Shown piece after piece: positions 2,949 to 63,280 of a stretch of DNA of 64,000 nucleotides (position 1 is its first letter; each line of letters opens with the position of its first letter). The stretch lies in IMG/VR virus record IMGVR_UViG_3300010354_000065, positions 1-64,000 of that record; one strand, given 5' to 3'. The translations under genes and the position numbers were made by a program. This DNA is from a virus. The notes under the pieces are model-generated. The model was given only the letters and a program-made list of their open reading frames with translations. It did no database searches and was not told where the DNA came from.

Positions 2949-3700
2949 TAGTATGTTCCTTCACTAAATGGATCACGTTCAGTGAAATCGATGATACCAT
3001 CAGCAACAACCTCTATTTCATCGTTGGAAGCTTCTGGTGCATTCTCATCAATGTCATACTTTTCTTGTAATAACGGATATCCGTCTTCCGTTGTAATAAA
3101 GTAGTTATCCTCAGTTTTAATACCAAATATACTCATCCCTAGTGAATAATTGTTCATTAAACGGTCTACTTCAGGTATACCAGTATCAAAAACCTCGTTG
3201 TTATATTCAAACAACTCACACTTTAAGTCATACATCTGTAACGAACCCATTTGATAAAACACAGGCTCTTGCTCAACAAATCTTATTTCAAATATCTTTT
3301 TGTTGAATGGGAAGTATATCAAATCTCCTTCTTGTGGACGTTCACGTTCGAGGTTAGTATCTGATAGATCCAATGTTGGAAAAGCTGCAACCACTTCATT
3401 AGAAAATGTACGTCGTGCTACGGTAAAAGTTATTTGATCTCGTATCTCAAGATTGAACTTTGAGAGAAACTCACCATCTCCAGCGAATCCCTCAACATTC
3501 TTTACATACATTTCAATGGGTATAGATGTCAGATATGAACGACCTTTATCTTCGTTAAAGATAGTATCAACACTACCTGTTTTTCTTGGTAAGTAGATAA
3601 CATCAAGACCGTATATCTTGATTGATTCAATAATCAAATCTTCAACGAGAGTTTGCTCTTGACTATTGAAAAAATTATTAAAGAAAAAGTTAGTCGCCAT
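2948..3700 (-). CDS. gp14: Neck protein gp14
   Basis: Neck (collar) protein that with gp13 joins the packaged head to the tail. The N-terminus (FFFNNFFNSQEQTLVEDLI then GLDVIYLPR) is typical of marine T4-like gp14, and 250 aa is close to T4's 256. It sits one base downstream of gp13 and overlaps gp15, giving adjacent, near-equimolar expression of the neck proteins. No anomaly seen. Confidence 0.93.
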   Translation of the reverse strand: MATNFFFNNFFNSQEQTLVEDLIIESIKIYGLDVIYLPRKTGSVDTIFNEDKGRSYLTSIPIEMYVKNVEGFAGDGEFLSKFNLEIRDQITFTVARRTFSNEVVAAFPTLDLSDTNLERERPQEGDLIYFPFNKKIFEIRFVEQEPVFYQMGSLQMYDLKCELFEYNNEVFDTGIPEVDRLMNNYSLGMSIFGIKTEDNYFITTEDGYPLLQEKYDIDENAPEASNDEIEVVADGIIDFTERDPFSEGTY

Positions 3701-8835: not shown

Positions 8836-9574
8836 GGAACCACTCGTTATACTATGTGTGAAGCTGGGATCAAAATATCATAGCCAGCTGGTGAATAATT
8901 TATATATCATGTGTGAAAAGACCATTACTCGTCCGTTCACAATGTTTTGTTATACAGACAACTACGAAGGCATAGACAAAAGAGTAAATATCGTCGAATA
9001 CGTAGAAAACAATTTTGACATTTTAGTGTATAATAAAATGTTTTTGTTTAGCAAAACGTTTAACGATCACTTACCTGACGGAGATAGATTATATTTTGAT
9101 TTAGATCTGATCATTAAATCAAACATAGATGATATAGTCAGTTACCAACAAGGTGATTTAACACTCATTGAGGCTGAATGGCGGCCGAGATGGGATTACG
9201 GGTTTCCTGTATTTCACCATCCATTCAACAGTAGCTGTATGACATGGAAAACAAAAAACGTTCAAAAAATATGGGATTATGTAATAAGAGACCCCGAACA
9301 TTTTATGACAAAATACAGATGGGGGATGGATTCTTTCTTATTTTACGAGAAGGAAAGTATAGGAGTTAATATACAATACTTTCCCTGCCGTAAATTTTAC
9401 TCTGCTTTATTTGGTATTGATATAGCAGAAAACTTGATATATGATCCGATCGAACTTGCATATAGAGAAAGCAAATTAAAGCATGTTGCAGACAAGATAC
9501 CCATTGTGTTGTTAAATGGACCAACAACACCAGATCATTACAACCATCTCTTCAAAAAGTATCACGCATCCTGA
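8834..9574 (+). CDS. Glycosyltransferase-like protein (GT-A type)
   Basis: The only plus-strand gene in the first 43 kb. The N-terminus (VILCVKLGSKYHSQLVNNLY, then PFTMFCYTDN) and a DxD-type motif (YFDLDLIIK, Asp89/Asp91) match phage nucleotide-sugar transferases of the GT-A fold; the C-terminal half has a WGMDSFLFYEKE segment. It may glycosylate DNA, a virion protein or a host surface glycan. The start is fixed because the family's first strand begins five residues in. It converges with and overlaps the 9562 gene by 13 bases. Confidence 0.65.
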   Translation: MEPLVILCVKLGSKYHSQLVNNLYIMCEKTITRPFTMFCYTDNYEGIDKRVNIVEYVENNFDILVYNKMFLFSKTFNDHLPDGDRLYFDLDLIIKSNIDDIVSYQQGDLTLIEAEWRPRWDYGFPVFHHPFNSSCMTWKTKNVQKIWDYVIRDPEHFMTKYRWGMDSFLFYEKESIGVNIQYFPCRKFYSALFGIDIAENLIYDPIELAYRESKLKHVADKIPIVLLNGPTTPDHYNHLFKKYHAS

Positions 9575-54240: not shown

Positions 54241-54314
54241 TGGAGCGGGTGAAGGGAATCGAACCCTCGTCGTAAGCTTGGAAGGCTTCTGCTCTACCAT
54301 TGAGCTACACCCGC
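54241..54314 (-). tRNA. tRNA-Gly (anticodon TCC)
   Basis: Complete cloverleaf on the minus strand: acceptor GCGGGTG/CACCCGC, loop CTTCCAA, T-loop TTCGATT and encoded CCA. It starts 3 bases after the stop of the 56-aa gene. A second tRNA-Gly with the same anticodon but different body lies at 57765. Confidence 0.95.
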
Positions 54315-54317
54315 TTA

Positions 54318-54488
54318 TTAATTATAACCCAAAATAATATTATCCCCAATATCAGTATCCTCATCAACAAAACAATCTTCTGTTGAAAGTATATCACAGT
54401 ATTCGTTTTTTCCAATCCCCGTATTATCTTCAACTTCTTTTTTTTGTTTTATTGTTTTGGCAGCTGTAAAGCTTTGATTGAATTTCAC
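54318..54488 (-). CDS. Small acidic protein, GTG start (56 aa)
   Basis: Frame opening with GTG whose bases overlap the stop of the upstream oxygenase (ATGTGA), with AAGGA six bases before it, a typical coupled restart. Product (V/M)KFNQSFTAAKTIKQKKEVE... then ECDIL-like and an acidic C-terminal half (FVDEDTDIGDNIILGYN). The stop is 3 bases from the tRNA-Gly gene. No family recognised; the basic N-terminus with acidic C-terminus suggests a small binding protein. Not a shadow of any other gene. Confidence 0.6.
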   Translation of the reverse strand: MKFNQSFTAAKTIKQKKEVEDNTGIGKNEYCDILSTEDCFVDEDTDIGDNIILGYN

Positions 54489-55069
54489 ATGATTCCTTTT
54501 TGTTTGCTTATTGAAGAAAAATAATCTTCAAAAGAAAGATTTTCTTGAAATCTCAGTGATGCTATTGTTCTTTCTTTTGGTCCTGTTGACGCACGATGAA
54601 AGGAATCAACTTTAACAAAGTGTGGACGCTCAAAACAAAGACGATCAACAATAAAAGGACCTTTAACCCATTCAGGATGTGTATGACCATATCCAGGGTC
54701 GGGACGTTTTATTTCAATAACTTCCCCCTCAGCCCACTCCATAAAACAATCAACACAACCTTCAATGGGTATATTATACGCTGTGCTTTTTCCAAAAACC
54801 CTCCCATCTTTCATACTATATAAATCTTTATGCCAGTTTTGTGTGAAAAAAGGAGGTCTTGTAAAAAGATGTAACGCAAACAATTGAGGAAGTTTGTAAT
54901 ATGACAGCTCATTATTAATTGTGGCACATACATCTGATGGTAAGTCTGAAGCAAATAATACGTTGGCTTGACGTTGTGGTGTTGGTGCAGCCTTTATTGA
55001 TTCAAGCTTTTTTTTACAAAAAGCCTGCACAGCAGGAACAAATTCAAAATTAAACGAAAAATAATACAT
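54485..55069 (-). CDS. Fe(II)/2OG oxygenase-like protein (194 aa)
   Basis: HxD at WHKDLY (His80-Asp82) and a distal His in KVDSFHRAS (His158), followed by Arg in GPKERTIASLRF to hold 2-oxoglutarate. The core YNIPIEGCVDCFMEWAEGE is the same pattern as NVPVTECSNVVMNWY in the 57225 gene, so these two and the 60894 gene form one subfamily. Its N-terminal line YYFSFNFEF resembles the short frame just upstream. Substrate unknown. Confidence 0.55.
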   Translation of the reverse strand: MYYFSFNFEFVPAVQAFCKKKLESIKAAPTPQRQANVLFASDLPSDVCATINNELSYYKLPQLFALHLFTRPPFFTQNWHKDLYSMKDGRVFGKSTAYNIPIEGCVDCFMEWAEGEVIEIKRPDPGYGHTHPEWVKGPFIVDRLCFERPHFVKVDSFHRASTGPKERTIASLRFQENLSFEDYFSSISKQKGIM

Positions 55070-55177
55070 TTATTTTTGTAGTCTGGAAAGAACAAAATCA
55101 AACTTTTCTAACGATTTCAAAGCCAGTTGTTTTATTCTAGATTCAAAATTAAAATTGAAAGGAATACTATTTAACAT
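55070..55177 (-). CDS. Short frame, possible remnant of a duplicated oxygenase (35 aa)
   Basis: MLNSIPFNFNFESRIKQ... ending FVLSRLQK, stop directly abutting the ATG of the next gene (TAAATG). Its FNFNFES...LALKSLEKF line resembles FSFNFEF...FCKKKLESI at the start of the neighbour, suggesting a truncated copy. No ribosome site is evident, so it may be untranslated. Confidence 0.35.
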   Translation of the reverse strand: MLNSIPFNFNFESRIKQLALKSLEKFDFVLSRLQK

Positions 55178-55215
55178 TTGGAAGCATGAAGTATGTTAGG
55201 TTACTGTTATATATC

Positions 55216-55290
55216 TGGCCCGGCCGGAGGGAATCGAACCCCCATTCGCGCTTTAGAAGAACGCTGTCCTATCCATTGAACGACGGCCAG
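55216..55290 (-). tRNA. tRNA-Arg (anticodon TCT)
   Basis: Acceptor CTGGCCG/CGGCCGG (one T-G pair), anticodon loop CTTCTAA, T-loop TTCGATT, CCA encoded. Reads AGA, a codon common in AT-rich phages. Confidence 0.93.
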
Positions 55291-55294
55291 AAAA

Positions 55295-55385
55295 TGGTGC
55301 CCGGAGCCGGGATCGAACCGGCACGCCGCTTTCGCTAAACGAGAGATTTTAAGTCTCTTGTGTCTACCTATTTCACCACCCGGGC
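55295..55385 (-). tRNA. tRNA-Leu (anticodon TAA)
   Basis: Type II tRNA with a long variable arm, anticodon stem AGAGA/TCTCT, loop CTTAAAA, CCA encoded. Four bases separate it from tRNA-Arg, so they are probably cut from one precursor. Confidence 0.93.
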
Positions 55386-55390
55386 TATAC

Positions 55391-55481
55391 TGGTACCTCT
55401 GGCGAGATTCGAACTCACATCAGCCGCTTATCTGGCGCTACGGGGTATAAATCCGCTGTTTTACCATTAAACTACAGAGGT
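55391..55481 (-). tRNA. Atypical type II tRNA, anticodon read as TAT (identity uncertain)
   Basis: Good acceptor (ACCTCTG/CAGAGGT), T-arm GTGAG/CTCGC with TTCGAAT, CCA encoded, and a long variable arm of about 21 bases. Anticodon stem GCGGA/CCCGT has an A-C mismatch at 31-39, leaving loop TTTATAC, hence TAT (Ile, AUA). A long arm is normally found only in Leu, Ser and Tyr tRNAs. Its first 10 bases overlap the end of the 55472 gene. Confidence 0.75.
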
Positions 55482-56008
55482 TTTGAAACATCAAACACTA
55501 ATGTTATTCTATCTTCGTTATTTAAATTTTGTGTACCGTGCATTTTTTGCGTGTTAAAACAAAATAACGTTCCTGGTGTAATATCGCGACTACTATCCCC
55601 TACAAAATATCGATATCTTCCTTTTATACACAAATGATACCGCTCTATTGTATGAAAATATTTTCCAGGATCTTTATGTAACGGAACCTTTTGTAATGGT
55701 TGCAGTTTAAGAAAAAAAGATCTTTGCAGGTTTACTGTGTTTTGATGTAACCAATCTAATGTTGAGGGAAATAATCCTTGAGAAAGATCTTCAACTTCTG
55801 TACTATTAAAAAAATTATCCGCTGACCTATTGGTGGTGTCAACATCACCAGGCCCAAAAAGTCTTAAGGTTTCTGTTTTTCGAAAAGCGTACAACAAATC
55901 CCCATAGTGTCTCCACAAATGAGAAGCTCGAGGGTGGACTACTTCATTTAAAATACATGATACATCGATGTTGGTTTTTTTTATTTCTATTTCAAAAGAG
56001 GGGTCCAT
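55472..56008 (-). CDS. Asp/Asn beta-hydroxylase-like Fe(II)/2OG oxygenase (178 aa)
   Basis: HxD at PLHKDPG (His111-Asp113), distal His in FNTQKMHGTQN (His157) and the terminal RITLVFDV strand with Arg, a complete AspH-like jelly roll. It overlaps the radical SAM gene by 22 bases, so the two are probably made together and may act on one substrate. Its last two codons and stop (CCT CTG TAG) are also the 5' acceptor strand of the adjacent tRNA. Confidence 0.7.
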   Translation of the reverse strand: MDPSFEIEIKKTNIDVSCILNEVVHPRASHLWRHYGDLLYAFRKTETLRLFGPGDVDTTNRSADNFFNSTEVEDLSQGLFPSTLDWLHQNTVNLQRSFFLKLQPLQKVPLHKDPGKYFHTIERYHLCIKGRYRYFVGDSSRDITPGTLFCFNTQKMHGTQNLNNEDRITLVFDVSKPL

Positions 56009-56835
56009 GTGTCTATAACTTCCTTCTTTAATTTTTGGTTGCCAGTTGCATTACACGTGTCGCACGGGACGCCACCCTTTGTTCTATTATGAAACATTAG
56101 CTTTTTACGAATACTATTCATCTCTTCAGAAAGCCACAGCTTGTGAAAAGGTGTCGTGTTTACATTACCAAACTTTCCTGCTGCCCTTGCCCAATCATTA
56201 CAACATAACAGTAAACTACCGTCCCAGTCAACGAAAGCTTTTGTATGGGGGAGAAAGCACGGCTTATTTAAAACGTCTTGAGGAATCCCATCTGTTTTAA
56301 CCGTACCAGCTCTATTTGTAAAAATTTGTATTGGAAAAGTGTACTTGGCGGAAAGGTGAATTGGTATACGATCCACAAAAGGCGCGACTTTACGCTTCCA
56401 TTGTTTGTATTGCTCTTCACTATCATACACATCTACAAAGATACTAGTTACTCCTGCATCGATGAAATCCTCAATGGTGTACCAATCATCATCAAGAATC
56501 TTATCTCCATTGGTATAAATTTGTATATCGCGGATTTTACCTTTTGCGACTTTTATATGCTCAAGAATATTTTTGTTGAGTGTTGGTTCTCCCATACCAG
56601 AAAAAACTATTCTACCTTTGTAGTTATTTTTGTACAAATCCTCTACAAGAGCAGTAATAGTATCCAGAGACATATGTAAGTTTTGATTAGGATAAATTTC
56701 TGGATCAACACGTGGACAAAACGCACAAGTTCTATTGCATAGCTCTGTTGGATTTACTTCAACCACGGTCAGACCAATAAGAGGATCTGTTGGTTCAAAG
56801 TGTTCGAGGGTACGTATTTTATGCATTTCTTTCAT
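55987..56835 (-). CDS. Radical SAM protein with SPASM-like C-terminus
   Basis: The 4Fe-4S binding CxxxCxxC is at ELCNRTCAFCP (Cys33, 37, 40), with GMGEPTL as the SAM-contacting GGE-like motif. Later cysteines (NKPCFLPHTK, LLLCCNDW, VPCDTCNATG) resemble a SPASM auxiliary cluster, typical of enzymes that modify peptides or proteins. 282 aa. It starts 15 bases after tRNA-Ser and overlaps the hydroxylase. A peptide- or protein-modifying pair is the simplest idea; the substrate is unknown. Confidence 0.8.
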   Translation of the reverse strand: MKEMHKIRTLEHFEPTDPLIGLTVVEVNPTELCNRTCAFCPRVDPEIYPNQNLHMSLDTITALVEDLYKNNYKGRIVFSGMGEPTLNKNILEHIKVAKGKIRDIQIYTNGDKILDDDWYTIEDFIDAGVTSIFVDVYDSEEQYKQWKRKVAPFVDRIPIHLSAKYTFPIQIFTNRAGTVKTDGIPQDVLNKPCFLPHTKAFVDWDGSLLLCCNDWARAAGKFGNVNTTPFHKLWLSEEMNSIRKKLMFHNRTKGGVPCDTCNATGNQKLKKEVIDTWTPLLK

Positions 56836-56850
56836 ATGTTCACTCTTTTA

Positions 56851-56942
56851 TGGCAGTGAGAGTGGGATTCGAACCCACGGTCCCGATTTCTCGAGACGAC
56901 GGTTTAGCAAACCGTTGATTTAAGCCACTCATCCATCTCACT
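56851..56942 (-). tRNA. tRNA-Ser (anticodon GCT)
   Basis: Type II tRNA; anticodon stem ACGGT/ACCGT, loop TTGCTAA, acceptor AGTGAGA/TCTCACT, CCA encoded. Reads AGC/AGU. Confidence 0.95.
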
Positions 56943-56949
56943 TTTTATT

Positions 56950-57039
56950 TGGTGGAAGCGGTGAGATTCGAACTCACGGACCCTTTCGGATCGTCTGTTT
57001 TCAAGACAGGTGCAATAAACCGGACTCTGCCACACTTCC
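56950..57039 (-). tRNA. tRNA-Ser (anticodon TGA)
   Basis: Type II tRNA; loop CTTGAAA, acceptor GGAAGTG/CGCTTCC, T-loop TTCGAAT, CCA encoded. Reads UCN-type serine codons, mainly UCA. Confidence 0.93.
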
Positions 57040-57046
57040 ATTTTTT

Positions 57047-57121
57047 TGGCATCCCGCGAGGGATTCGAACCCCCACCCACGGTTTTGGAGACCGTCATGC
57101 TGCCGTTAACACCAGCGAGAT
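57047..57121 (-). tRNA. tRNA-Trp (anticodon CCA)
   Basis: Anticodon stem ACGGT/ACCGT with loop CTCCAAA, acceptor ATCTCGC/GCGGGAT, discriminator G, CCA encoded. Confidence 0.92.
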
Positions 57122-57133
57122 GTGTTGTATGTA

Positions 57134-57208
57134 TGGTGCATCGTGAGAGGATTGAACTCCCGACCTTCGCCTTGTAAGGGCGCAGCTCTACCGCTGAGCT
57201 AACGATGC
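57134..57208 (-). tRNA. tRNA-Val (anticodon TAC)
   Basis: Anticodon stem GCGCC/GGCGA with loop CTTACAA, perfect acceptor GCATCGT/ACGATGC, CCA encoded. Confidence 0.95.
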
Positions 57209-57224
57209 ATATATATTTTCATTT

Positions 57225-57776
57225 ATGAAACACGAATATTCTGAAGTTATTGATTTTCAATACGATCGCAATCTTCTTTACAAGACTGTAAAAGAGATAG
57301 TCGAAGAAAACAACCTTTTTAACAAGGCTGTTCCAATTTCTGCATTTAAAAATTTACAGAAGATTAAAATATTATCAGCTCTTAATCTTAAATTCAGAGA
57401 TACCCTTTTTGACATATACATGAATAGTGTAACTGTTGCCTGTTTACAACCCAAACAAAGATCCGCTATACACGTTGATAGAGATGTTGACAACACATTT
57501 ACAACGAAGGCATTGAATGTACCTGTTACAGAATGTAGCAATGTTGTAATGAACTGGTATAAGGTAAAACCAGGTGGTGTTATCAAAACTATTAGGTCTG
57601 CTCGTGGGTGGGAAATACCTGGTCTTTCTTTAGATCAGAGCGTAATAATACACTCACAAACAGCTAACAAACCTTTTTTGGTGAATCCTTCTACATTTCA
57701 CGACATAATTAATAATGGAGACAAACCAGAATTAATTATTAGTATTCGAACAGGAAACGAAAATTGGAGCGGGTAG
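57225..57776 (+). CDS. Fe(II)/2OG oxygenase-like protein on the opposite strand (183 aa)
   Basis: HxD at SAIHVDRDVDN (His83-Asp85), core ALNVPVTECSNVVMNWYKVK and a distal His in NPSTFHDII (His159). Same subfamily as the 54485 and 60894 genes. Plus strand, embedded in the minus-strand tRNA array, with no obvious ribosome site. Its last four codons (TGG AGC GGG TAG) are the complement of the 3' end of tRNA-Gly at 57765. Its isolated orientation suggests later insertion into the array. Confidence 0.55.
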   Translation: MKHEYSEVIDFQYDRNLLYKTVKEIVEENNLFNKAVPISAFKNLQKIKILSALNLKFRDTLFDIYMNSVTVACLQPKQRSAIHVDRDVDNTFTTKALNVPVTECSNVVMNWYKVKPGGVIKTIRSARGWEIPGLSLDQSVIIHSQTANKPFLVNPSTFHDIINNGDKPELIISIRTGNENWSG

Positions 57777-57842
57777 TGGGATTCGAACCCATCACTTCGA
57801 GTTTGGAAGACTAGCGTGCTAACCGTTAAACACTATACCCGC
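57765..57842 (-). tRNA. tRNA-Gly (anticodon TCC), second copy
   Basis: Acceptor GCGGGTA/TACCCGC, loop CTTCCAA, T-loop TTCGAAT, CCA encoded. The body differs from the tRNA-Gly at 54241, so it is not a recent duplicate. Confidence 0.92.
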
Positions 57843-57845
57843 AGA

Positions 57846-57919
57846 TGGTAGGGGCACCGAGAATCGAACTCGGGTTTGCTGGTTAAAAGCCAGCTACTTT
57901 ACCACTAAGTTATGCCCCC
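57846..57919 (-). tRNA. tRNA-Lys (anticodon TTT)
   Basis: Perfect anticodon stem GCTGG/CCAGC with loop CTTTTAA, acceptor GGGGGCA/TGCCCCT, T-loop TTCGATT, CCA encoded. Confidence 0.95.
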
Positions 57920-57924
57920 GAAAA

Positions 57925-57998
57925 TGGTACCGGATACTGGTAACGATCCAGTGTCGCACGATTATCAGTCGTGTGCTCTACCTTTGAGCTAATCCGGT
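57925..57998 (-). tRNA. tRNA-Ile (anticodon GAT), unusual T-loop
   Basis: Perfect acceptor ACCGGAT/ATCCGGT, anticodon stem CACGA/TCGTG, loop CTGATAA. The T-loop is ATCGTTA instead of TTCRANN, so positions 54 and 58 are A and T, the reverse of the universal T54-A58. Confidence 0.92.
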
Positions 57999-58000
57999 AT

Positions 58001-58074
58001 TGGCAGAGGGTATTGGAATCGAACCAATAATAACGGAATCAAAATCCGTGGTTATACCATTTAACTAACCCCCA
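58001..58074 (-). tRNA. tRNA-Gln (anticodon TTG)
   Basis: Perfect anticodon stem ACGGA/TCCGT with loop TTTTGAT, T-arm TTGG-TTCGATT-CCAA, CCA encoded. The first acceptor pair is T-T, a weak pair being usual in tRNA-Gln. Confidence 0.93.
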
Positions 58075-58083
58075 ACAAAACTA

Positions 58084-58159
58084 TGGTACCGCCTTCTGGG
58101 ATCGAACCAGATTCCACGGTTCTTCAGACCGTTGCTATGACCACATCAGCTAAAGCGGC
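58084..58159 (-). tRNA. tRNA-Phe (anticodon GAA)
   Basis: Perfect anticodon stem ACGGT/ACCGT with loop CTGAAGA, acceptor GCCGCTT/AGGCGGT with two G-T pairs, CCA encoded. Confidence 0.93.
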
Positions 58160-58169
58160 TTATGATAAT

Positions 58170-58245
58170 TGGGCAGGAGAACGGGAGTTGAACCCTGTCT
58201 TACTGTTTCACAGACAGTCGTGCGCACCGGTACACTATTCCCTGC
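58170..58245 (-). tRNA. tRNA-His (anticodon GTG)
   Basis: Anticodon stem ACTGT/ACAGT with loop CTGTGAA. Discriminator C faces an extra 5' G, the histidine identity pair. CCA encoded. The T-stem is weak. Confidence 0.9.
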
Positions 58246-58251
58246 ACTGTA

Positions 58252-58327
58252 TGGAACCACCTGAGAGAGTCGAACTCCCGCCTCTTCGTTCGTAGCGAAG
58301 TGTTCTGATCCATTGAACTAAGGTGGT
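58252..58327 (-). tRNA. tRNA-Arg (anticodon ACG)
   Basis: Perfect anticodon stem CTTCG/CGAAG with loop CTACGAA, acceptor ACCACCT/AGGTGGT, CCA encoded. A34 would need A-to-I editing by the host TadA to read CGU/CGC/CGA. Confidence 0.94.
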
Positions 58328-58331
58328 GGAT

Positions 58332-58408
58332 TGGTGCCCAAGGAGGGATTCGAACCCACACTGTATGGCTTCTAAGACCATTGCCTCTACCAATTGCGCT
58401 ACTTGGGC
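58332..58408 (-). tRNA. Type I tRNA with anticodon TAG (nominal Leu)
   Basis: Acceptor GCCCAAG/CTTGGGC, anticodon stem ATGGT/GCCAT, loop CTTAGAA, T-loop TTCGAAT, CCA encoded. The anticodon reads CUA (Leu), but the variable loop is only about 5 bases, while bacterial Leu tRNAs have a long arm, so amino acid identity is uncertain. Confidence 0.82.
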
Positions 58409-58423
58409 TTGCTATATACTTTT

Positions 58424-58957
58424 ATGCACAATCGCCAAACTTTTATACACACACAACGACTTGAGCAAGCAACCGCGAATATTAAAGATGACTTCTTTAG
58501 AATATACGGCGGTGTTGATAAGCTCAAAATTATAAAGTCACCCAAGCAAGACAAAGGAGTCTCCGCTGAGTGGGTTGGATCATTTGCATACTTTCAAAAA
58601 CGTAATCCTCAATGGGACCCTCTTTGTCAGTTTCGCTCACGTTTTCTCAAACCTTTTGTTGAGTCTTTTCCTCAAAACCACCTATTTGGTATATGGTTCA
58701 GTGCTATATTACCAGGTGGAGTTATACAGTGGCACACTGACAAATATGACGAGGGGGAAGACTATATCAGAGTACACTTGCCTCTCATTGTACCACAAGG
58801 CGACATAGGTATCACTGTAGAAGAGACAACATATAAATGGGACGAAGGTAAAGTGTTTTGTTTTGATCCTTTTGTAATGCATACCGCATGGAATAAAACA
58901 AACAACCTTCGTCTAAACTTAAATTTTAATTTTTCCAAAAAAGCTTTTATTTGTTGA
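58424..58957 (+). CDS. AspH-like Fe(II)/2OG oxygenase on the opposite strand (177 aa)
   Basis: AspH-type jelly roll: IQWHTDKYDEGEDYIRVHLP (His104, Asp106, with the RVHLPL strand), LIVPQGD, KWDEGKVFCFD, then FVMHTAWNKTNNLRLNL (His153). I start at 58424 because the earlier ATG at 58394 lies inside a tRNA. Plus strand, opposite the tRNAs; its last bases form one arm of the 17-bp inverted repeat of structured RNA 1. Close in pattern to the 61439 gene. Confidence 0.68.
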   Translation: MHNRQTFIHTQRLEQATANIKDDFFRIYGGVDKLKIIKSPKQDKGVSAEWVGSFAYFQKRNPQWDPLCQFRSRFLKPFVESFPQNHLFGIWFSAILPGGVIQWHTDKYDEGEDYIRVHLPLIVPQGDIGITVEETTYKWDEGKVFCFDPFVMHTAWNKTNNLRLNLNFNFSKKAFIC

Positions 58958-59125
58958 AAGCACTCCAGTCTGTTTAAGGATCCGGTGATCCCCTCTTATC
59001 TTTGCTATACGCTCAAAAGCCCTAGTGCCACCACAGCACATCGAGGGACTCGATAGAGGTCGGTATTACCTTTGGAGTCAGGCAGCTGGTTAGGCTTTTT
59101 GCTCACAGGCTTTCAACAAATAAAA
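58945..59125 (-). ncRNA. Candidate structured RNA 1 in the tRNA array
   Basis: Bounded by a perfect 17-bp inverted repeat, TTTTATTTGTTGAAAGC (58945-58961) with its complement at 59109-59125. Inside, on the minus strand: a 7-bp helix AAAAGCC/GGCTTTT, hairpins ATCGAG/CTCGAT, GTGC/GCAC and GGATC/GATCC. It begins 2 bases after the CCA of tRNA-Met, as if released by tRNA processing. Position recalls T4 stable RNAs C and D. No protein frame seen. Its left arm overlaps the end of the plus-strand 58424 gene. Confidence 0.7.
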
Positions 59126-59127
59126 CA

Positions 59128-59205
<78 letters not shown>

Positions 59206-59212
59206 AATAGGA

Positions 59213-59409
59213 TTTGCAAGTAGTGCCACCACGTTATTGGCACCATTCACCCGATTATACTAGTCCGGACGGGAGTCGGTAAGTCACTTGAAATACTCAA
59301 CACAGTGTCCCTTATTTTTTGCTAGGGATTCGCGCCCCCCACTGCTTTACTCTATTTGGCTCTTCGAAGTAACCTTATAGAGTGTCTTTCTCCTGCTGAC
59401 ACTTGCAAA
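59213..59409 (-). ncRNA. Candidate structured RNA 2 in the tRNA array
   Basis: Closed by a 9-bp helix TTTGCAAGT (59213-59221) with ACTTGCAAA (59401-59409). Inner hairpins: GTGCC/GGCAC, CCGA/TCGG around a GTCCGGAC palindrome, CAGTG/CACTG enclosing TCCCT/AGGGA, and ACTCTAT/ATAGAGT. It fills the space between tRNA-Asn (3 bases away) and tRNA-Met (7 bases). Shares TAGTGCCACCAC (plus strand) with RNA 1. No coding frame seen. Confidence 0.65.
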
Positions 59410-59412
59410 ACT

Positions 59413-59489
59413 TGGCTGGCCTGGTAGGGATCGAACCCACGACATCTTGATTAACAGTCAAGCGCAACTACCAACTGTGCTACAGGCCA
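59413..59489 (-). tRNA. tRNA-Asn (anticodon GTT)
   Basis: Perfect anticodon stem CTTGA/TCAAG with loop CTGTTAA, acceptor TGGCCTG/CAGGCCA, discriminator G, CCA encoded. Confidence 0.95.
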
Positions 59490-59500
59490 ATATTCAACAT

Positions 59501-59574
59501 TGGTGCCCCCACCATGAATCGAACAAGGAATTGATGCTTACAAGGCAACTGTTATACCATTTAACTATAGGGGC
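59501..59574 (-). tRNA. tRNA-Thr (anticodon TGT)
   Basis: Acceptor GCCCCTA/TGGGGGC, loop CTTGTAA, T-loop TTCGATT, CCA encoded. One mismatch in the anticodon stem. Confidence 0.9.
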
Positions 59575-59592
59575 AAATCTTTTCTACTTATT

Positions 59593-59668
59593 TGGTCTCC
59601 GACACTGGACTCGAACCAGCACCTTCTGCACCCCAAATGCAGTGGACTACCTATTATCCCAATCGGAG
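59593..59668 (-). tRNA. tRNA-Pro (anticodon TGG)
   Basis: Perfect anticodon stem CTGCA/TGCAG with loop TTTGGGG, T-loop TTCGAGT, acceptor CTCCGAT/GTCGGAG, CCA encoded. Confidence 0.94.
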
Positions 59669-59672
59669 GTAT

Positions 59673-59746
59673 TGGTAGCAGGTCGGGGTAACGCTCCCCG
59701 CTCGGATGGGCTTATGAGACCCACCGGATCACTTGATCTACCTGCA
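59673..59746 (-). tRNA. tRNA with CAT anticodon, non-canonical D- and T-loops
   Basis: Acceptor TGCAGGT/ACCTGCT with an unpaired first position (T-T), anticodon stem TGGGT/GCCCA with loop CTCATAA, CCA encoded. T-loop AGCGTTA lacks T54 and A58, and no clear GG is seen in the D-loop. The open 1-72 pair would suit an initiator, but the identity (fMet, Met or Ile2) is open. Confidence 0.78.
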
Positions 59747-59753
59747 ATTGTTT

Positions 59754-59828
59754 TGGTGGACCGCTGGAGAATCGAACTCCAACCTCCGCCGTGCAAAGGC
59801 GGCGTGCTCCCATTATCACTAGCAGCCC
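59754..59828 (-). tRNA. tRNA-Ala (anticodon TGC)
   Basis: Perfect anticodon stem CCGCC/GGCGG with loop TTTGCAC, acceptor GGGCTGC/GCGGTCC with wobble pairs, including a G3-T70 wobble. G3-U70 is the alanine identity element. CCA encoded. Confidence 0.94.
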
Positions 59829-59831
59829 TTT

Positions 59832-59906
59832 TGGCGGTTTCAAGGGGTAACGATCCCCTTCTTCATGCGTGACAGGCATGCGTGCGTCCATGAACACTTT
59901 GAAACC
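59832..59906 (-). tRNA. tRNA-Asp (anticodon GTC), unusual T-loop
   Basis: Perfect acceptor GGTTTCA/TGAAACC, anticodon stem CATGC/GCATG, loop CTGTCAC, discriminator G, CCA encoded. T-loop ATCGTTA carries the same A54/T58 swap as tRNA-Ile at 57925. Confidence 0.92.
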
Positions 59907-59980
59907 TTATAGAAGCACATTACTGTTAACCTTGCCTCAACTCTTGTGTTAAGGATCCAAAGGATAATGTGCTTTTATAA
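59907..59980 (-). ncRNA. Candidate structured RNA 3 (hairpin, about 74 nt)
   Basis: A 16-bp helix with one G-T pair (TTATAGAAGCACATTA at 59907-59922 with 59965-59980), extendable by two pairs into tRNA-Asp. It encloses TTAAC/GTTAA and ATCC/GGAT hairpins. Directly upstream (minus strand) of tRNA-Asp with no spacer, so RNase P would define its 3' end. Confidence 0.65.
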
Positions 59981-60159
59981 GGTGTAGGCTACGTTTCCAC
60001 ATCGCCCCTACTTGAGTTGACACCCTGTCGTCACCTTTGCTTCTTCGGCTGTGTGAATCATCCTAGCAGTTCCTAAGTTGTTTAGACTTGCTAACGGTGT
60101 ACTGCCACCGGGAATCTACGTTTATCCATCGCCTCTGTCACGCCGAGGAAGCGGGATTA
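59981..60159 (-). ncRNA. Candidate structured RNA 4 in the tRNA array
   Basis: Fills the space between tRNA-Tyr and RNA 3. Main helix GCTTCTTCGGC (60039-60049) with GCCGAGGAAGC (60142-60152), 11 bp with one T-G pair. Second domain GGTGT/ACACC plus GTAGG/CCTAC (59981-60024). Hairpin CGGTG/CACCG around the TACTGCCACC motif. A 21-base direct repeat (CTACGTTT..CATCGCC) occurs near 59989 and 60115. No coding frame or tRNA fold seen. Limits approximate. Confidence 0.55.
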
Positions 60160-60252
60160 TGGTGGAGGTCCACGGATTCGAACCGCGAATGTTTACCACG
60201 AGGGACCGGATTTACAGTCCAGTGCAGCACACGCCATAGCTGCAAGACCTCC
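60160..60252 (-). tRNA. tRNA-Tyr (anticodon GTA)
   Basis: Type II tRNA with a long variable arm, anticodon stem CTGGA/TCCGG, loop CTGTAAA, perfect acceptor GGAGGTC/GACCTCC, CCA encoded. Confidence 0.95.
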
Positions 60253-60259
60253 TAAAAAC

Positions 60260-60337
60260 TGGAGTACCGGGTCAGATTCGAACTGACGGTTGTAGAGTTT
60301 TGCAGACTCTTGCATTGGGCCACTCTGCCACCGATAC
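60260..60337 (-). tRNA. tRNA-Cys (anticodon GCA)
   Basis: Perfect anticodon stem AGAGT/ACTCT with loop CTGCAAA, acceptor GTATCGG/CCGGTAC, discriminator T (usual for Cys), CCA encoded. Confidence 0.94.
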
Positions 60338-60340
60338 ATT

Positions 60341-60490
60341 TACCATTTGTTTAATGCTATCGCGCCAATTTGTCAACAAAGTAGCTAACTCTGACAAGCG
60401 AATAGCGGTTGTATCAGGACCTGTTCCTCGCACAGTTAGGCCCGCATAGTCTATGCGTCCATAGACGATACCCTGATAGCATTAAACAAA
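60341..60490 (-). ncRNA. Candidate structured RNA 5, closed by a 21-bp perfect helix
   Basis: TACCATTTGTTTAATGCTATC (positions 60341-60361, 21 bp in total) is perfectly complementary to 60475-60495. The outer five pairs use the TACCA 3' end of tRNA-Glu, leaving 16 pairs after tRNA release. Inner minus-strand hairpins: CGTC/GACG, CGCATA/TATGCG with a 3-base loop, and TTGTCA/TGACAA. Three bases separate it from tRNA-Cys. Not coding. Confidence 0.75.
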
Positions 60491-60566
60491 TGGTACACCT
60501 AGGGAGAATCGAACTCCTCGTTTCCGCCTTGAAAGGGCAGCGTCCTAGCCGTTAGACGATAGGTGC
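60491..60566 (-). tRNA. tRNA-Glu (anticodon TTC)
   Basis: First tRNA of the promoter-proximal array. Acceptor GCACCTA/TAGGTGT, anticodon stem CTGCC/GGCGG, loop CTTTCAA, T-loop TTCGATT, CCA encoded. Its last five bases also belong to the closing helix of RNA 5. Confidence 0.94.
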
Positions 60567-60630
60567 ACGTAACCATCTACAAATTGTAAAAGAGCAAAGT
60601 AGTCAATGTTGTTAACTACTCAATATGAAC

Positions 60631-60659
60631 ATTATATGACAAAACAAACATCTTGTCAA
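60631..60659 (-). promoter_or_regulatory. Consensus sigma-70 promoter for the tRNA/RNA array
   Basis: Minus strand TTGACA (60654-60659), 17-base spacer, TATAAT (60631-60636), a perfect match to the housekeeping consensus. It lies about 65 bases upstream of tRNA-Glu and after the terminator at 60694, so it should start the tRNA and structured RNA transcript early with unmodified host polymerase. Confidence 0.9.
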
Positions 60660-60689
60660 CAGTCCATTTTTGGTTAAATAACCACAAAC

Positions 60690-60772
60690 AAAAAACCCCG
60701 GTTTCTTTCGATTCCGGGGTTCCTGGTTTGTAGATACTTGTGCTACAGCTTCAGGTTCCCCTCACTCCAATC
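60690..60772 (-). ncRNA. Candidate small RNA or attenuator leader
   Basis: Bounded by its own promoter (60778-60807) and the terminator at 60694. Segment GGGGAACCTG (60752-60761) can pair with CAGGAACCCC (60716-60725) as 4+4 bp around an A-A loop; this would consume the 5' arm of the terminator stem. A 5-bp hairpin TGTAG/CTACA lies between. Either a short stable RNA of about 80 nt or an attenuator. Confidence 0.5.
60694..60721 (-). terminator. Rho-independent terminator
   Basis: Stem AACCCCGG/CCGGGGTT (60714-60721 with 60694-60701) and 12-base loop, followed on the minus strand by a run of six T. It separates the transcripts from the right from the tRNA promoter. It may be regulated by an alternative stem (see 60690-60772). 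Confidence 0.88.
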
Positions 60773-60858
60773 CATGTATTATAGGCGCATGGGCGAGCGA
60801 CGGTCAACAGACCGGGCTGCTTGCGCTCAATAAACGATGATATGTGAAGGTGAACCAT
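60751..60858 (-). CDS. Possible leader peptide (35 aa)
   Basis: ATG at 60858 with AGGA seven bases upstream, product MVHLHISSFIERKQPG...YNTWIGVRGT. Its stop falls in the GGGGAACCTG arm described at 60690-60772, so translation could influence the hairpin choice. It also overlaps a promoter. Composition is richer in G+C than its surroundings. Weak evidence for translation. Confidence 0.3.
   Translation of the reverse strand: MVHLHISSFIERKQPGLLTVARPCAYNTWIGVRGT
60778..60807 (-). promoter_or_regulatory. Sigma-70-like promoter before the terminator
   Basis: Minus strand TTGACC (60802-60807), 18-base spacer, TATAAT (60778-60783). It would start RNA near 60771, only about 80 bases before the terminator. 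Confidence 0.65.
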
Positions 60859-60893
60859 TTTTTTCCTCATAGTACTACTATATATGTCTTCTT

Positions 60894-61454
60894 TTAGTCG
60901 ACAATACAATCCTCAAAAATTTTTTTTGCCTTGTCCCACTGTAGCCTTTGTTTGGTTTCTAAGTCACCGAGCACCACGCACGCAACGTATCTCGGATACT
61001 TACTGTTATGGACAGCATGAATCCTACCAACGTTAACAAGGCTTGGTGTACCAATAGATGCTGAGTAGGCGTGAATAAGATCTTCTCGTGGTGCGTAAGA
61101 ATATTGTGTGTTAATAACTGTTGTGTTTGTTTTAAGAGTGGCACCTGGCCGTAGCTCGTACCAATCCATTGTGCTATTTTCACCACCTCTCATCCAGTTG
61201 AGTTTTACAACATCGTTAATTTCCGGACTATCTGAATGAGGCTCTAAAGTCCGGCCTGGTGGAGTGTAGAAGTACTCACCAGCAATAACAAACAAGCTTC
61301 TTAGACTCAACCATCCTTTAAATTCATCATCCATATCTGCTTTGTGAAAGCGAGTATGGTAGTGCAGCTGCGTATTGGGAACCGGATATTCAGGAAATGT
61401 AAATGATACCGGTATTTTCAGATGATGGTGATACTTGTTTATAAAAGAGGCCAT
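60894..61454 (-). CDS. Fe(II)/2OG oxygenase-like protein (186 aa)
   Basis: HxD at LEPHSDSPEIN (His73-Asp75), core VVKLNWMRGGENSTMDWYEL and distal His in NVGRIHAVHN (His146 or His149), followed by the RYVACVVL strand. Same subfamily as the 54485 and 57225 genes. I give the ATG at 61454; the frame stays open to a GTG at 61517, and the true start is unsure because neither has a clear ribosome site. Overlaps the upstream oxygenase gene. Substrate unknown. Confidence 0.55.
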   Translation of the reverse strand: MASFINKYHHHLKIPVSFTFPEYPVPNTQLHYHTRFHKADMDDEFKGWLSLRSLFVIAGEYFYTPPGRTLEPHSDSPEINDVVKLNWMRGGENSTMDWYELRPGATLKTNTTVINTQYSYAPREDLIHAYSASIGTPSLVNVGRIHAVHNSKYPRYVACVVLGDLETKQRLQWDKAKKIFEDCIVD

Positions 61455-62068
61455 TTGACTATTGAACGATGAAGGTCGATCAAGAACACGAGACGTCGGT
61501 ACGATGAGTTGTTCCACGCACTATGTTCACATTGATTGTCAAAAGCAAACACGTTGTCCCAATGAATAAAGATTGTCCGCTCAATTTCAAATGTGATATC
61601 CCCTTCAGGTACTATTAGAGGGATATGACATCTCACGTACTGTTTACGTCGATTTTCAATTCCAGTATGACGACCTATACGACTATGAGCTTCCATAATG
61701 CTATATGTCGCGATCGGACAAGCAATCTGTCCACCTTCAACTCCATCTGGATAAAGATTGTCAAAATGATCAACAAGCTTCCAGGCAGCAGGATATTTGT
61801 CTCGGTTCGTAGCCGATTTGGTATTAACACCAGGATCCGTATACCGTAACCCCTCAACTTTCCATGCATCACCTGCAGCTGCATTACCAGCTGTCTTCCA
61901 CTGACCAACGGTTTTCATTTTATATTTTGGATCAAGCTCGCGTTCTTCAGGTGTTGGTTGTTTGTCACTAAAATTAGGAAAAATTTTCAAAAAATCCGCC
62001 GTCATTCCTTCACGAAAAGTATTGAAAAAATCAGTGAATATGAATTCGTCTGCTAGTTGATACTTCAT
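61439..62068 (-). CDS. Aspartyl/asparaginyl beta-hydroxylase-like oxygenase (209 aa)
   Basis: Good AspH signature: SRIGRHTGIENRRKQYVRCH, then IPLIVPEGD, then FAFDNQCEHSAWNNSSYRRL. The first motif is His-x-Gly (His134-Gly136) rather than HxD, as in mammalian AspH, where two histidines hold the iron; the second is His182. Start at the ATG 62068; an earlier ATG at 62107 lies deep in the lysin gene. Protein substrate likely but unknown. Confidence 0.75.
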   Translation of the reverse strand: MKYQLADEFIFTDFFNTFREGMTADFLKIFPNFSDKQPTPEERELDPKYKMKTVGQWKTAGNAAAGDAWKVEGLRYTDPGVNTKSATNRDKYPAAWKLVDHFDNLYPDGVEGGQIACPIATYSIMEAHSRIGRHTGIENRRKQYVRCHIPLIVPEGDITFEIERTIFIHWDNVFAFDNQCEHSAWNNSSYRRLVFLIDLHRSIVKWPLL

Positions 62069-62585
62069 GTCGATCTCTCGCTTGTCTATAAAATATATGA
62101 TTACCAATTTGTGTAGTTCTATACAGCCGCCACTTTGGATTTATAGCCACACTGTGAAAGTATGTAGCTCCTTTTGTAACATCATCAATTAGCTCATGGT
62201 AAAGTAAGACTAAAATAGAGAAGTCCACAATATCATGATACAACTGCGTGTGTTTGATAGCGTTCCGTCGCTTCGTAATAGAAGGATCACACAACCAGCT
62301 GAATTGGCATACGCCGTTTTGCTTTTGATGAACAACATTACATATTGTACTTGGGAATTTGTACGACAAGACCCTGTTGATAGTCACAAAAGCAACTGCT
62401 AACTTACCATTTACTGACTCAGAAGCCGCCTCGAAGTAAATATTTTCAGCAAGACACGTTACTTGTCGTTGTGATTCTTTACTTAACTCATGAAAACTCG
62501 GTGAGAGTGGCAAGTTTGAAGGAATTGCCGCGGCTGCTGAGAGTATAAATGTTGAAAGCAGAAATCCTGTCAGGATAGCTCTCAT
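62031..62585 (-). CDS. SleB-family cell wall hydrolase with signal peptide (probable endolysin)
   Basis: Residues 1-20 form a signal peptide (MRAILTGFLLSTFILSAAAA). The rest is the SleB/CwlJ hydrolase domain: CLAENIYFEAASESVNGKLA with likely catalytic Glu47 or Glu52, VAFVTINRV, then GVCQFSWLCD and KGATYFHSV. Such enzymes cut peptidoglycan; a secretory signal suggests export by the Sec route for host lysis. A strong ribosome site (AAAGGAGAG) precedes the ATG, just after the tmRNA. Confidence 0.88.
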   Translation of the reverse strand: MRAILTGFLLSTFILSAAAAIPSNLPLSPSFHELSKESQRQVTCLAENIYFEAASESVNGKLAVAFVTINRVLSYKFPSTICNVVHQKQNGVCQFSWLCDPSITKRRNAIKHTQLYHDIVDFSILVLLYHELIDDVTKGATYFHSVAINPKWRLYRTTQIGNHIFYRQARDRHEVSTSRRIHIH

Positions 62586-62604
62586 TTATCTCTCCTTTTA
62601 AAGA

Positions 62605-62905
62605 GGTGGGTTATTCTGTTACGAGGAAACCCACCGAAACCCTAAGCCGTGTTTAGGCGGCTAATGCGAAACGTTCATCGTTTGCGTTTACTTAATTTAC
62701 TTTTAACGACTCTCTGTGTCGGATCGTCCATATTTCTACTCTTTGCCCTGTCGAAACCAGGTCAGGCCCATCAAAAGCATACACAATTCCTCACCTTGTA
62801 GGAGTCTCATATTTCAGAGCCGATCCCTGTATGCTTTTGGTGGACCTGGGCGGAATCGAACCGCCGTCCAGAACACCTTTCGATCTACTTCATACGATCG
62901 TAAAA
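62605..62905 (-). ncRNA. ssrA: Circularly permuted (two-piece type) tmRNA
   Basis: On the minus strand the acceptor piece comes first: T-arm GGCGG-TTCGATT-CCGCC, acceptor CAGGTCC, A, CCA (62838-62865). An intervening segment with an 11-bp inverted repeat (AAAAGCATACA, 62773-62783 with 62828-62838) follows, then the coding piece starting GGGCCTG (62763-62769) and the conserved GGTTTCGAC. GGGCCTG pairs with CAGGTCC (7 bp). Helix P2 is CAGGGCA/TGTTCTG. The tag frame lies at 62653-62685, its stop in a CCTAA/TTAGG helix. An 8-bp hairpin (62605-62635) ends the gene. Rescues stalled ribosomes with SmpB. Confidence 0.92.
62653..62685 (-). CDS. ssrA: tmRNA proteolysis tag frame (ANDERFALAA)
   Basis: Resume codon GCA, then AAC GAT GAA CGT TTC GCA TTA GCC GCC TAA, giving ANDERFALAA. 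Compare the E. coli tag (A)ANDENYALAA: the first four residues and the LAA end recognised by ClpXP are kept. Upstream AAGTAAAC suits the -6 to +1 resume context. Confidence 0.93.
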   Translation of the reverse strand, partial: ANDERFALAA

Positions 62906-63280
62906 CTACTTATCTACCTTCTGATGATACGGCACAGTCATTTTTCTTTCTGTGCTTGTCTTCATATGGCTATGTGCCTTCGCACTATTCCGGATTATAT
63001 CATAAGATACGTGATGAGTAAACCCATCTTTGTCTTCATGAGAAGACGCTGCCTGTACAGTATGTGTTTTATAATTGCCATACGACTTTGTATGAATCCG
63101 GTAATGTAGATTACCACTACCTCCATGCGCAAGGTCATGGTTTGTAATAATGCCATGCTCTTTACTCTGCTTGATGTGTTTCACAGCTGTCTTTGGAATA
63201 TGCTTTGCAAGCTCATGACCAGACATCCACTCGGATGTAGTCTTGTTTTCTTCCGTAATAAACTCTGTAAAAGTTAACAT
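62906..63280 (-). CDS. Possible internal head protein with capsid-targeting sequence (124 aa)
   Basis: Starts MLTFTEFITEENKTT, closely following the T4 internal-protein targeting pattern (MKTYQEFIAE type) that is cut by the gp21 protease after L/I-x-E (here ITE). The remaining 114 residues are His/Lys/Ser-rich and basic (HIPKTAVKHIKQSKEHGI, HSHMKTSTERK), as expected of a DNA-associated protein injected with the genome. A ribosome site (AAAGGA) precedes the ATG. Its stop touches the start of the tmRNA acceptor piece. Role inferred from the N-terminus. Confidence 0.5.
   Translation of the reverse strand: MLTFTEFITEENKTTSEWMSGHELAKHIPKTAVKHIKQSKEHGIITNHDLAHGGSGNLHYRIHTKSYGNYKTHTVQAASSHEDKDGFTHHVSYDIIRNSAKAHSHMKTSTERKMTVPYHQKVDK

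Follow-up and report, generated by a model that had tools for sequence, protein, structure and literature searches.

The permuted tmRNA locus and its phage

The window analyzed here, a stretch of 64,000 nucleotides, is part of the virus record IMGVR_UViG_3300010354_000065 (74,807 bases). Near its end, a gene for a circularly permuted tmRNA fills the gap between two open reading frames (ORFs) of the same strand, one of 124 residues and one for a cell wall hydrolase. The features of this region are as follows.

62906..63280, minus strand: 124-aa ORF (ORF list), ending just upstream of the acceptor piece
62838..62899, minus strand: acceptor piece of the tmRNA, with the P2 3' strand, the T-arm, the acceptor 3' strand CAGGTCC and an encoded CCA (62840-62838); ARAGORN 3' tRNA domain 62876-62838, RF04321 match from 62899
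62770..62837, minus strand: intervening spacer of 68 nt, presumed to be removed (ARAGORN boundaries)
62743..62769, minus strand: 5' tRNA-like domain of the coding piece, with the acceptor 5' strand GGGCCTG, GGTTTCGAC and the P2 5' strand (ARAGORN 5' tRNA domain)
62653..62685, minus strand: tag reading frame ANDERFALAA followed by TAA (ARAGORN)
62605..62635, minus strand: 3' hairpin of the coding piece, GGTGGGTT...AACCCACC with the loop TCCTCGTAACAGAAT; the loop is common to many viral relatives and the stem is variable
62031..62585, minus strand: cell wall hydrolase (PF07486, 76.1 bits in Pfam; endolysin in PHROG, phrog_938), directly downstream of the tmRNA
54241..60566, minus strand: 25 tRNA genes for all 20 amino acids (ARAGORN), 23 of which exceed the Rfam tRNA cut-off

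The permuted tmRNA with the tag ANDERFALAA was called by ARAGORN at 62562-62930 on the minus strand. The covariance models of Rfam matched the same locus, namely beta_tmRNA (RF01850) at 62950-62599 on the minus strand with 138.8 bits (cut-off 84, E 2.7e-42, model positions 1-331), and tmRNA_permuted (RF04321) at 62899-62653 on the minus strand with 133.7 bits (cut-off 47, E 5.3e-26, model positions 1-213). The curated cut-offs of both families were hence exceeded at full length, and two independent detectors agree. A reading of the two Rfam matches as two tmRNA genes was rejected, since the models overlap on one gene. The first-pass annotation had proposed a phage-borne, circularly permuted tmRNA at 62605-62905, and this was borne out by every test run: both covariance models scored above their cut-offs, ARAGORN called the permuted form with its 68-nt spacer, and the minus strand reads acceptor piece, spacer and coding piece in that order.

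The anatomy also agreed with that annotation in nearly all details. P2, GGTTTCGAC and a ten-codon tag with its stop (TAA) are all present in the sequence, and the acceptor strands GGGCCTG (62769-62763) and CAGGTCC (62848-62842) pair perfectly except for one wobble, as claimed. This wobble is the third pair, G3-U70, which is the alanine identity element recognized by alanyl-tRNA synthetase (AlaRS) in tRNA-Ala and tmRNA. The spacer is closed by a stem, 62839-62828 with 62783-62772, whose fold was evaluated as -26.3 kcal/mol (z -3.4 against shuffles). Its presence had been recognized, and the length of 11 bp given earlier becomes 12 bp when the CA of the CCA is counted; the stem takes in these last two bases and adjoins both predicted cleavage sites.

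PHROG matches in the record include a T4-type terminase, the baseplate wedge gp6, the tail tube and neck genes. The best match of the terminase is Methylophilales phage Melnitz (58% identity), Pelagibacter phages and cyanophages are also close, and the gp6 protein matches other T4-like phages. The record is a T4-like phage (Pantevenvirales). The full tRNA set described beside the tmRNA was recovered as the 25 genes listed above. The tRNA array (region 54485-62107) is interspersed with at least three genes resembling the aspartyl/asparaginyl beta-hydroxylase family PF05118 (55472-56008, 58394-58957 and 61439-62107), a radical SAM/SPASM gene (55987-56835) and further unassigned ORFs similar in size to the PF05118 genes. 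A fatty acid desaturase gene (PF00487, 63304-63999) lies two genes upstream of the tmRNA, and the 124-aa ORF matched no family in PHROG or Pfam. A gene for SmpB was found neither in the phage record, which may be incomplete, nor in 14 related records, and SmpB is therefore assumed to be supplied by the host.

Pairing and tags among viral relatives

Relatives were collected from IMG/VR by a tag-based pattern scan, which gave 32 contigs, in 31 of which ARAGORN called a permuted tmRNA. A second, independent collection was chosen by the cell-wall hydrolase and not by the tmRNA. In total, 54 distinct viral permuted tmRNAs were compared, including one of Xanthomonas phage X1 (L035, OQ427096.1). In this isolated phage, the permuted tmRNA at 2966-3416 is unannotated and carries an unusual ARAGORN tag, VAANDADYSVARYA.

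For the analysis of base pairing, the acceptor stem, T-stem and P2 of 38 distinct genes from viruses or phages, among them Melnitz and X1, were taken as one gap-free block; L041, L025 and L065 were excluded from the pair counts because ARAGORN placed their domain boundaries out of register or because they lack the TTCGA anchor. Standard pairs occupied 99.6% of the base-pair cells, against 82% in shuffles; none of 500 shuffles, which ignore sequence relatedness, and no slid control came near the observed pairing. Compensatory changes, with both sides altered, were observed for 16 of the 19 pairs of the tRNA domain. The G3-U70 (U-G) pair was invariant in all 38 genes, while acceptor pairs 4-6 varied freely. 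The 3' hairpin showed a common loop on 30 distinct paired stems, and complementary spacer ends were present in most viral relatives. Two pairs of contigs, L053 with L062 and L008 with L064, share the same spacer ends (length equal or within one base) and differ in their tags, a pattern that an exchange of spacers or tag regions through recombination could produce. Contig L008 also encodes, at 8869-8943, a tRNA with the anticodon CTA, which reads UAG and is assigned by ARAGORN to Pyl.

The commonest viral tags were ANDERFALAA, ANDEKFALAA, ANDESYALAA, ANDSQFALAA and ANDNKFALAA; the tag called for L045 is plainly an error. The ANDERFALAA peptide alone is encoded by 12 different viral DNA sequences. 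In a subgroup (L065, L066, L080, L101, L113 and L115), RLAA, RIAA or QLAA replaces ALAA. The compensatory pair changes, the synonymous coding of the tag and the shared hairpin loop are evidence for a working two-piece RNA whose tag would be used, rather than for a relic. Judging from these sequence patterns, and from the recurring gene neighbourhood and the host-type promoters of many relatives described below, it is highly probable that the locus is a genuine phage gene under selection, and that its product is a functional two-piece tmRNA which acts together with the SmpB, AlaRS and RNase P of the host.

The precursor would run 5' to 3' as acceptor piece, spacer and coding piece, and the spacer is predicted to be removed by tRNA-processing enzymes of the host. 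RNase P would generate the 5' terminus at GGGCCTG, and trimming would bring the 3' terminus to the encoded CCA; the acceptor stem and P2 would then keep the two resulting pieces together. Host AlaRS may then charge this molecule via G3-U70, and host SmpB and EF-Tu would deliver it to stalled ribosomes, where the ANDERFALAA tag, with its LAA end, would direct the released protein to proteases of the host. This would give the phage rescue capacity during the destruction of host mRNA and the switch-over of translation.

The same molecule might instead serve as a decoy or inhibitor that titrates SmpB or AlaRS and damps trans-translation of the host. A mycobacteriophage DS6A molecule reduced to the tRNA-like domain inhibits the endogenous tmRNA, according to PMC11915505 and PMC4131195, and a few viral genes have diverged tag ends (RIAA, RLAA and MVA). 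Such a decoy is nevertheless improbable: it would require no tag frame, whereas the tag peptide and the stop codon have persisted despite many silent codon changes, and most viral genes retain the usual ..ALAA end.

Descent, neighbourhood and promoters

The descent of the two-piece tmRNA was examined with two trees. In a tree of 192 columns, a branch supported at 100/100 divided all viral genes except that of Melnitz from the permuted genes of one betaproteobacterial order, both those of the Rhodocyclaceae type and others. A tree restricted to the 80 safest-aligned columns (tRNA domain and tag start) neither confirmed nor rejected viral monophyly (AU p 0.19). Since this second tree does not decide, a long descent of the viral permuted tmRNA within phages is likely but not proved. 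The exact 37-base acceptor pattern matched no bacterial genome, and a DNA search of 369 class-level genomes gave matches that were nearly all short and confined to the tRNA-like part.

These data also bear on whether the gene is a passenger, that is, a recently captured host gene lacking a phage function and left by imprecise exchange. ANDERFALAA is a common betaproteobacterial tag, and the exact peptide is encoded by many bacteria, including Rhodocyclaceae, as such a capture would have it. The fully supported viral branch of the 192-column tree (bar Melnitz, and with the 80-column tree giving no resolution), the long divergence with compensatory changes and the recurrence of the gene neighbourhood all speak for a resident gene, and a recent capture is very unlikely.

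The neighbourhood in question links the tmRNA to the cell-wall hydrolase. Upstream sequence of 1.5 kb or more was available for 60 viral hydrolase relatives, and in 39 of them a permuted tmRNA of the same strand precedes the hydrolase. That the tmRNA serves mainly as an RNA-processing element of the operon, its removal severing the mRNA ahead of the hydrolase from that of the upstream ORF and so setting the expression of this lysis gene, is scarcely credible: the tmRNA does fill the same-strand gap with the hydrolase ATG 67 nt past the tag stop, and 13 of the 44 tmRNA-hydrolase pairs in total have no more than 150 nt between the tag stop and the hydrolase match, but many relatives have up to 2.4 kb of other sequence in between, the Melnitz tmRNA lies ~3 kb from the hydrolase beside another gene, and tag conservation would be left unexplained.

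Upstream promoters were compared among the viral genes. Of 51 genes, 18 have a sigma-70 promoter that departs from TTGACA-N17-TATAAT at no more than one position, against 0.11 expected from shuffles, and its -10 box begins at a fixed distance, 36-41 nt upstream of the tRNA-like domain. Such a promoter likewise precedes the Melnitz tmRNA, in keeping with the early promoter that PMC9004378 proposed. No recognizable sigma-70 promoter was found upstream of the window copy or of its near relatives L037 and L038, so that their RNA would come from an unrecognized promoter or from read-through of the upstream gene. Exact copies of the T4 late-promoter box, TATAAATA, show no enrichment across the window, and none was found for the tmRNA gene; in a few relatives, a box that is exact or has one mismatch occurs within 70 nt upstream, at -32 to -56. 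The sequence GATAAGTA at -38 in the window has two mismatches to this box and was not taken as evidence.

Relation to known tmRNAs

A permuted tmRNA in a T4-like phage had been suggested as possibly unprecedented in the first-pass annotation. This suggestion was wrong because the two-piece tmRNA of the T4-like phage Melnitz, also the closest phage by terminase, was reported in 2022, together with 53 two-piece tmRNAs among 133 distinct public phage tmRNA structures (PMC9004378). The functions suggested there for a phage tmRNA, upkeep of rescue and retagging of proteins, are similar in form to those offered by the annotation. The present phage resembles Melnitz (Kyanoviridae) and Pelagibacter phages such as Mosig (PMC9004378) in being T4-like and in having a permuted tmRNA, an encoded CCA and complementary spacer ends. 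In contrast, the Melnitz tmRNA is described as alphaproteobacteria-like and has the tag ANDNYVPVDYALAA, neither of which applies to the window gene. It also adjoins the late-transcription coactivator, whereas the window tmRNA adjoins the hydrolase, and it is linked to a glutamine riboswitch, whereas the window tmRNA is not; a riboswitch of this kind was not found in the window by searches including an Rfam scan.

The bacterial beta-type permuted tmRNA (RF01850) has the same gene order and domain structure as the window gene. Most bacterial spacers measure 3-43 nt, with two genomes at 51 and 65 nt, compared with a viral median of 75 nt. The final A of CCA is usually not encoded in Rhodocyclaceae-type genes and is encoded in other Burkholderiales genes. 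The tmRNAs of mycobacteriophages of the Bxz1 group and of Bacillus phage G have the standard one-piece form. These unrelated phages are likewise carriers of a tmRNA (PMC4131195).

The window tmRNA is one of a group of viral genes that is widespread but has been little described, and whose members are often found near a cell-wall hydrolase gene. A beta-type viral group, the hydrolase link and a diversity of this size were not found in the open-licence literature searched; the 54 distinct viral permuted tmRNAs, their pair covariation, their hydrolase neighbourhood and their promoters are new from IMG/VR. A permuted tmRNA above the cut-off was found in 11 of 250 sampled genomes (~4%), all of the betaproteobacterial order used in the 192-column tree, and many betaproteobacteria sharing the ANDERFALAA tag have a one-piece tmRNA. 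Given this low frequency, some of these phages may bring the two-piece form into hosts using the one-piece form. A broader proposal, which we advance as doubtful, is that an old lineage of two-piece tmRNA, of betaproteobacterial type but specific to phages, is present in environmental T4-like phages, linked to the hydrolase and often with its own host-type promoter, and that this tmRNA may equip hosts of the one-piece type and may be the source of the permuted tmRNA in some bacteria. The many examples indicate that selection maintains a complete two-piece tmRNA in T4-like phages beyond the described Melnitz/Pelagibacter group as well, and phage trans-translation thereby becomes testable in many lineages.
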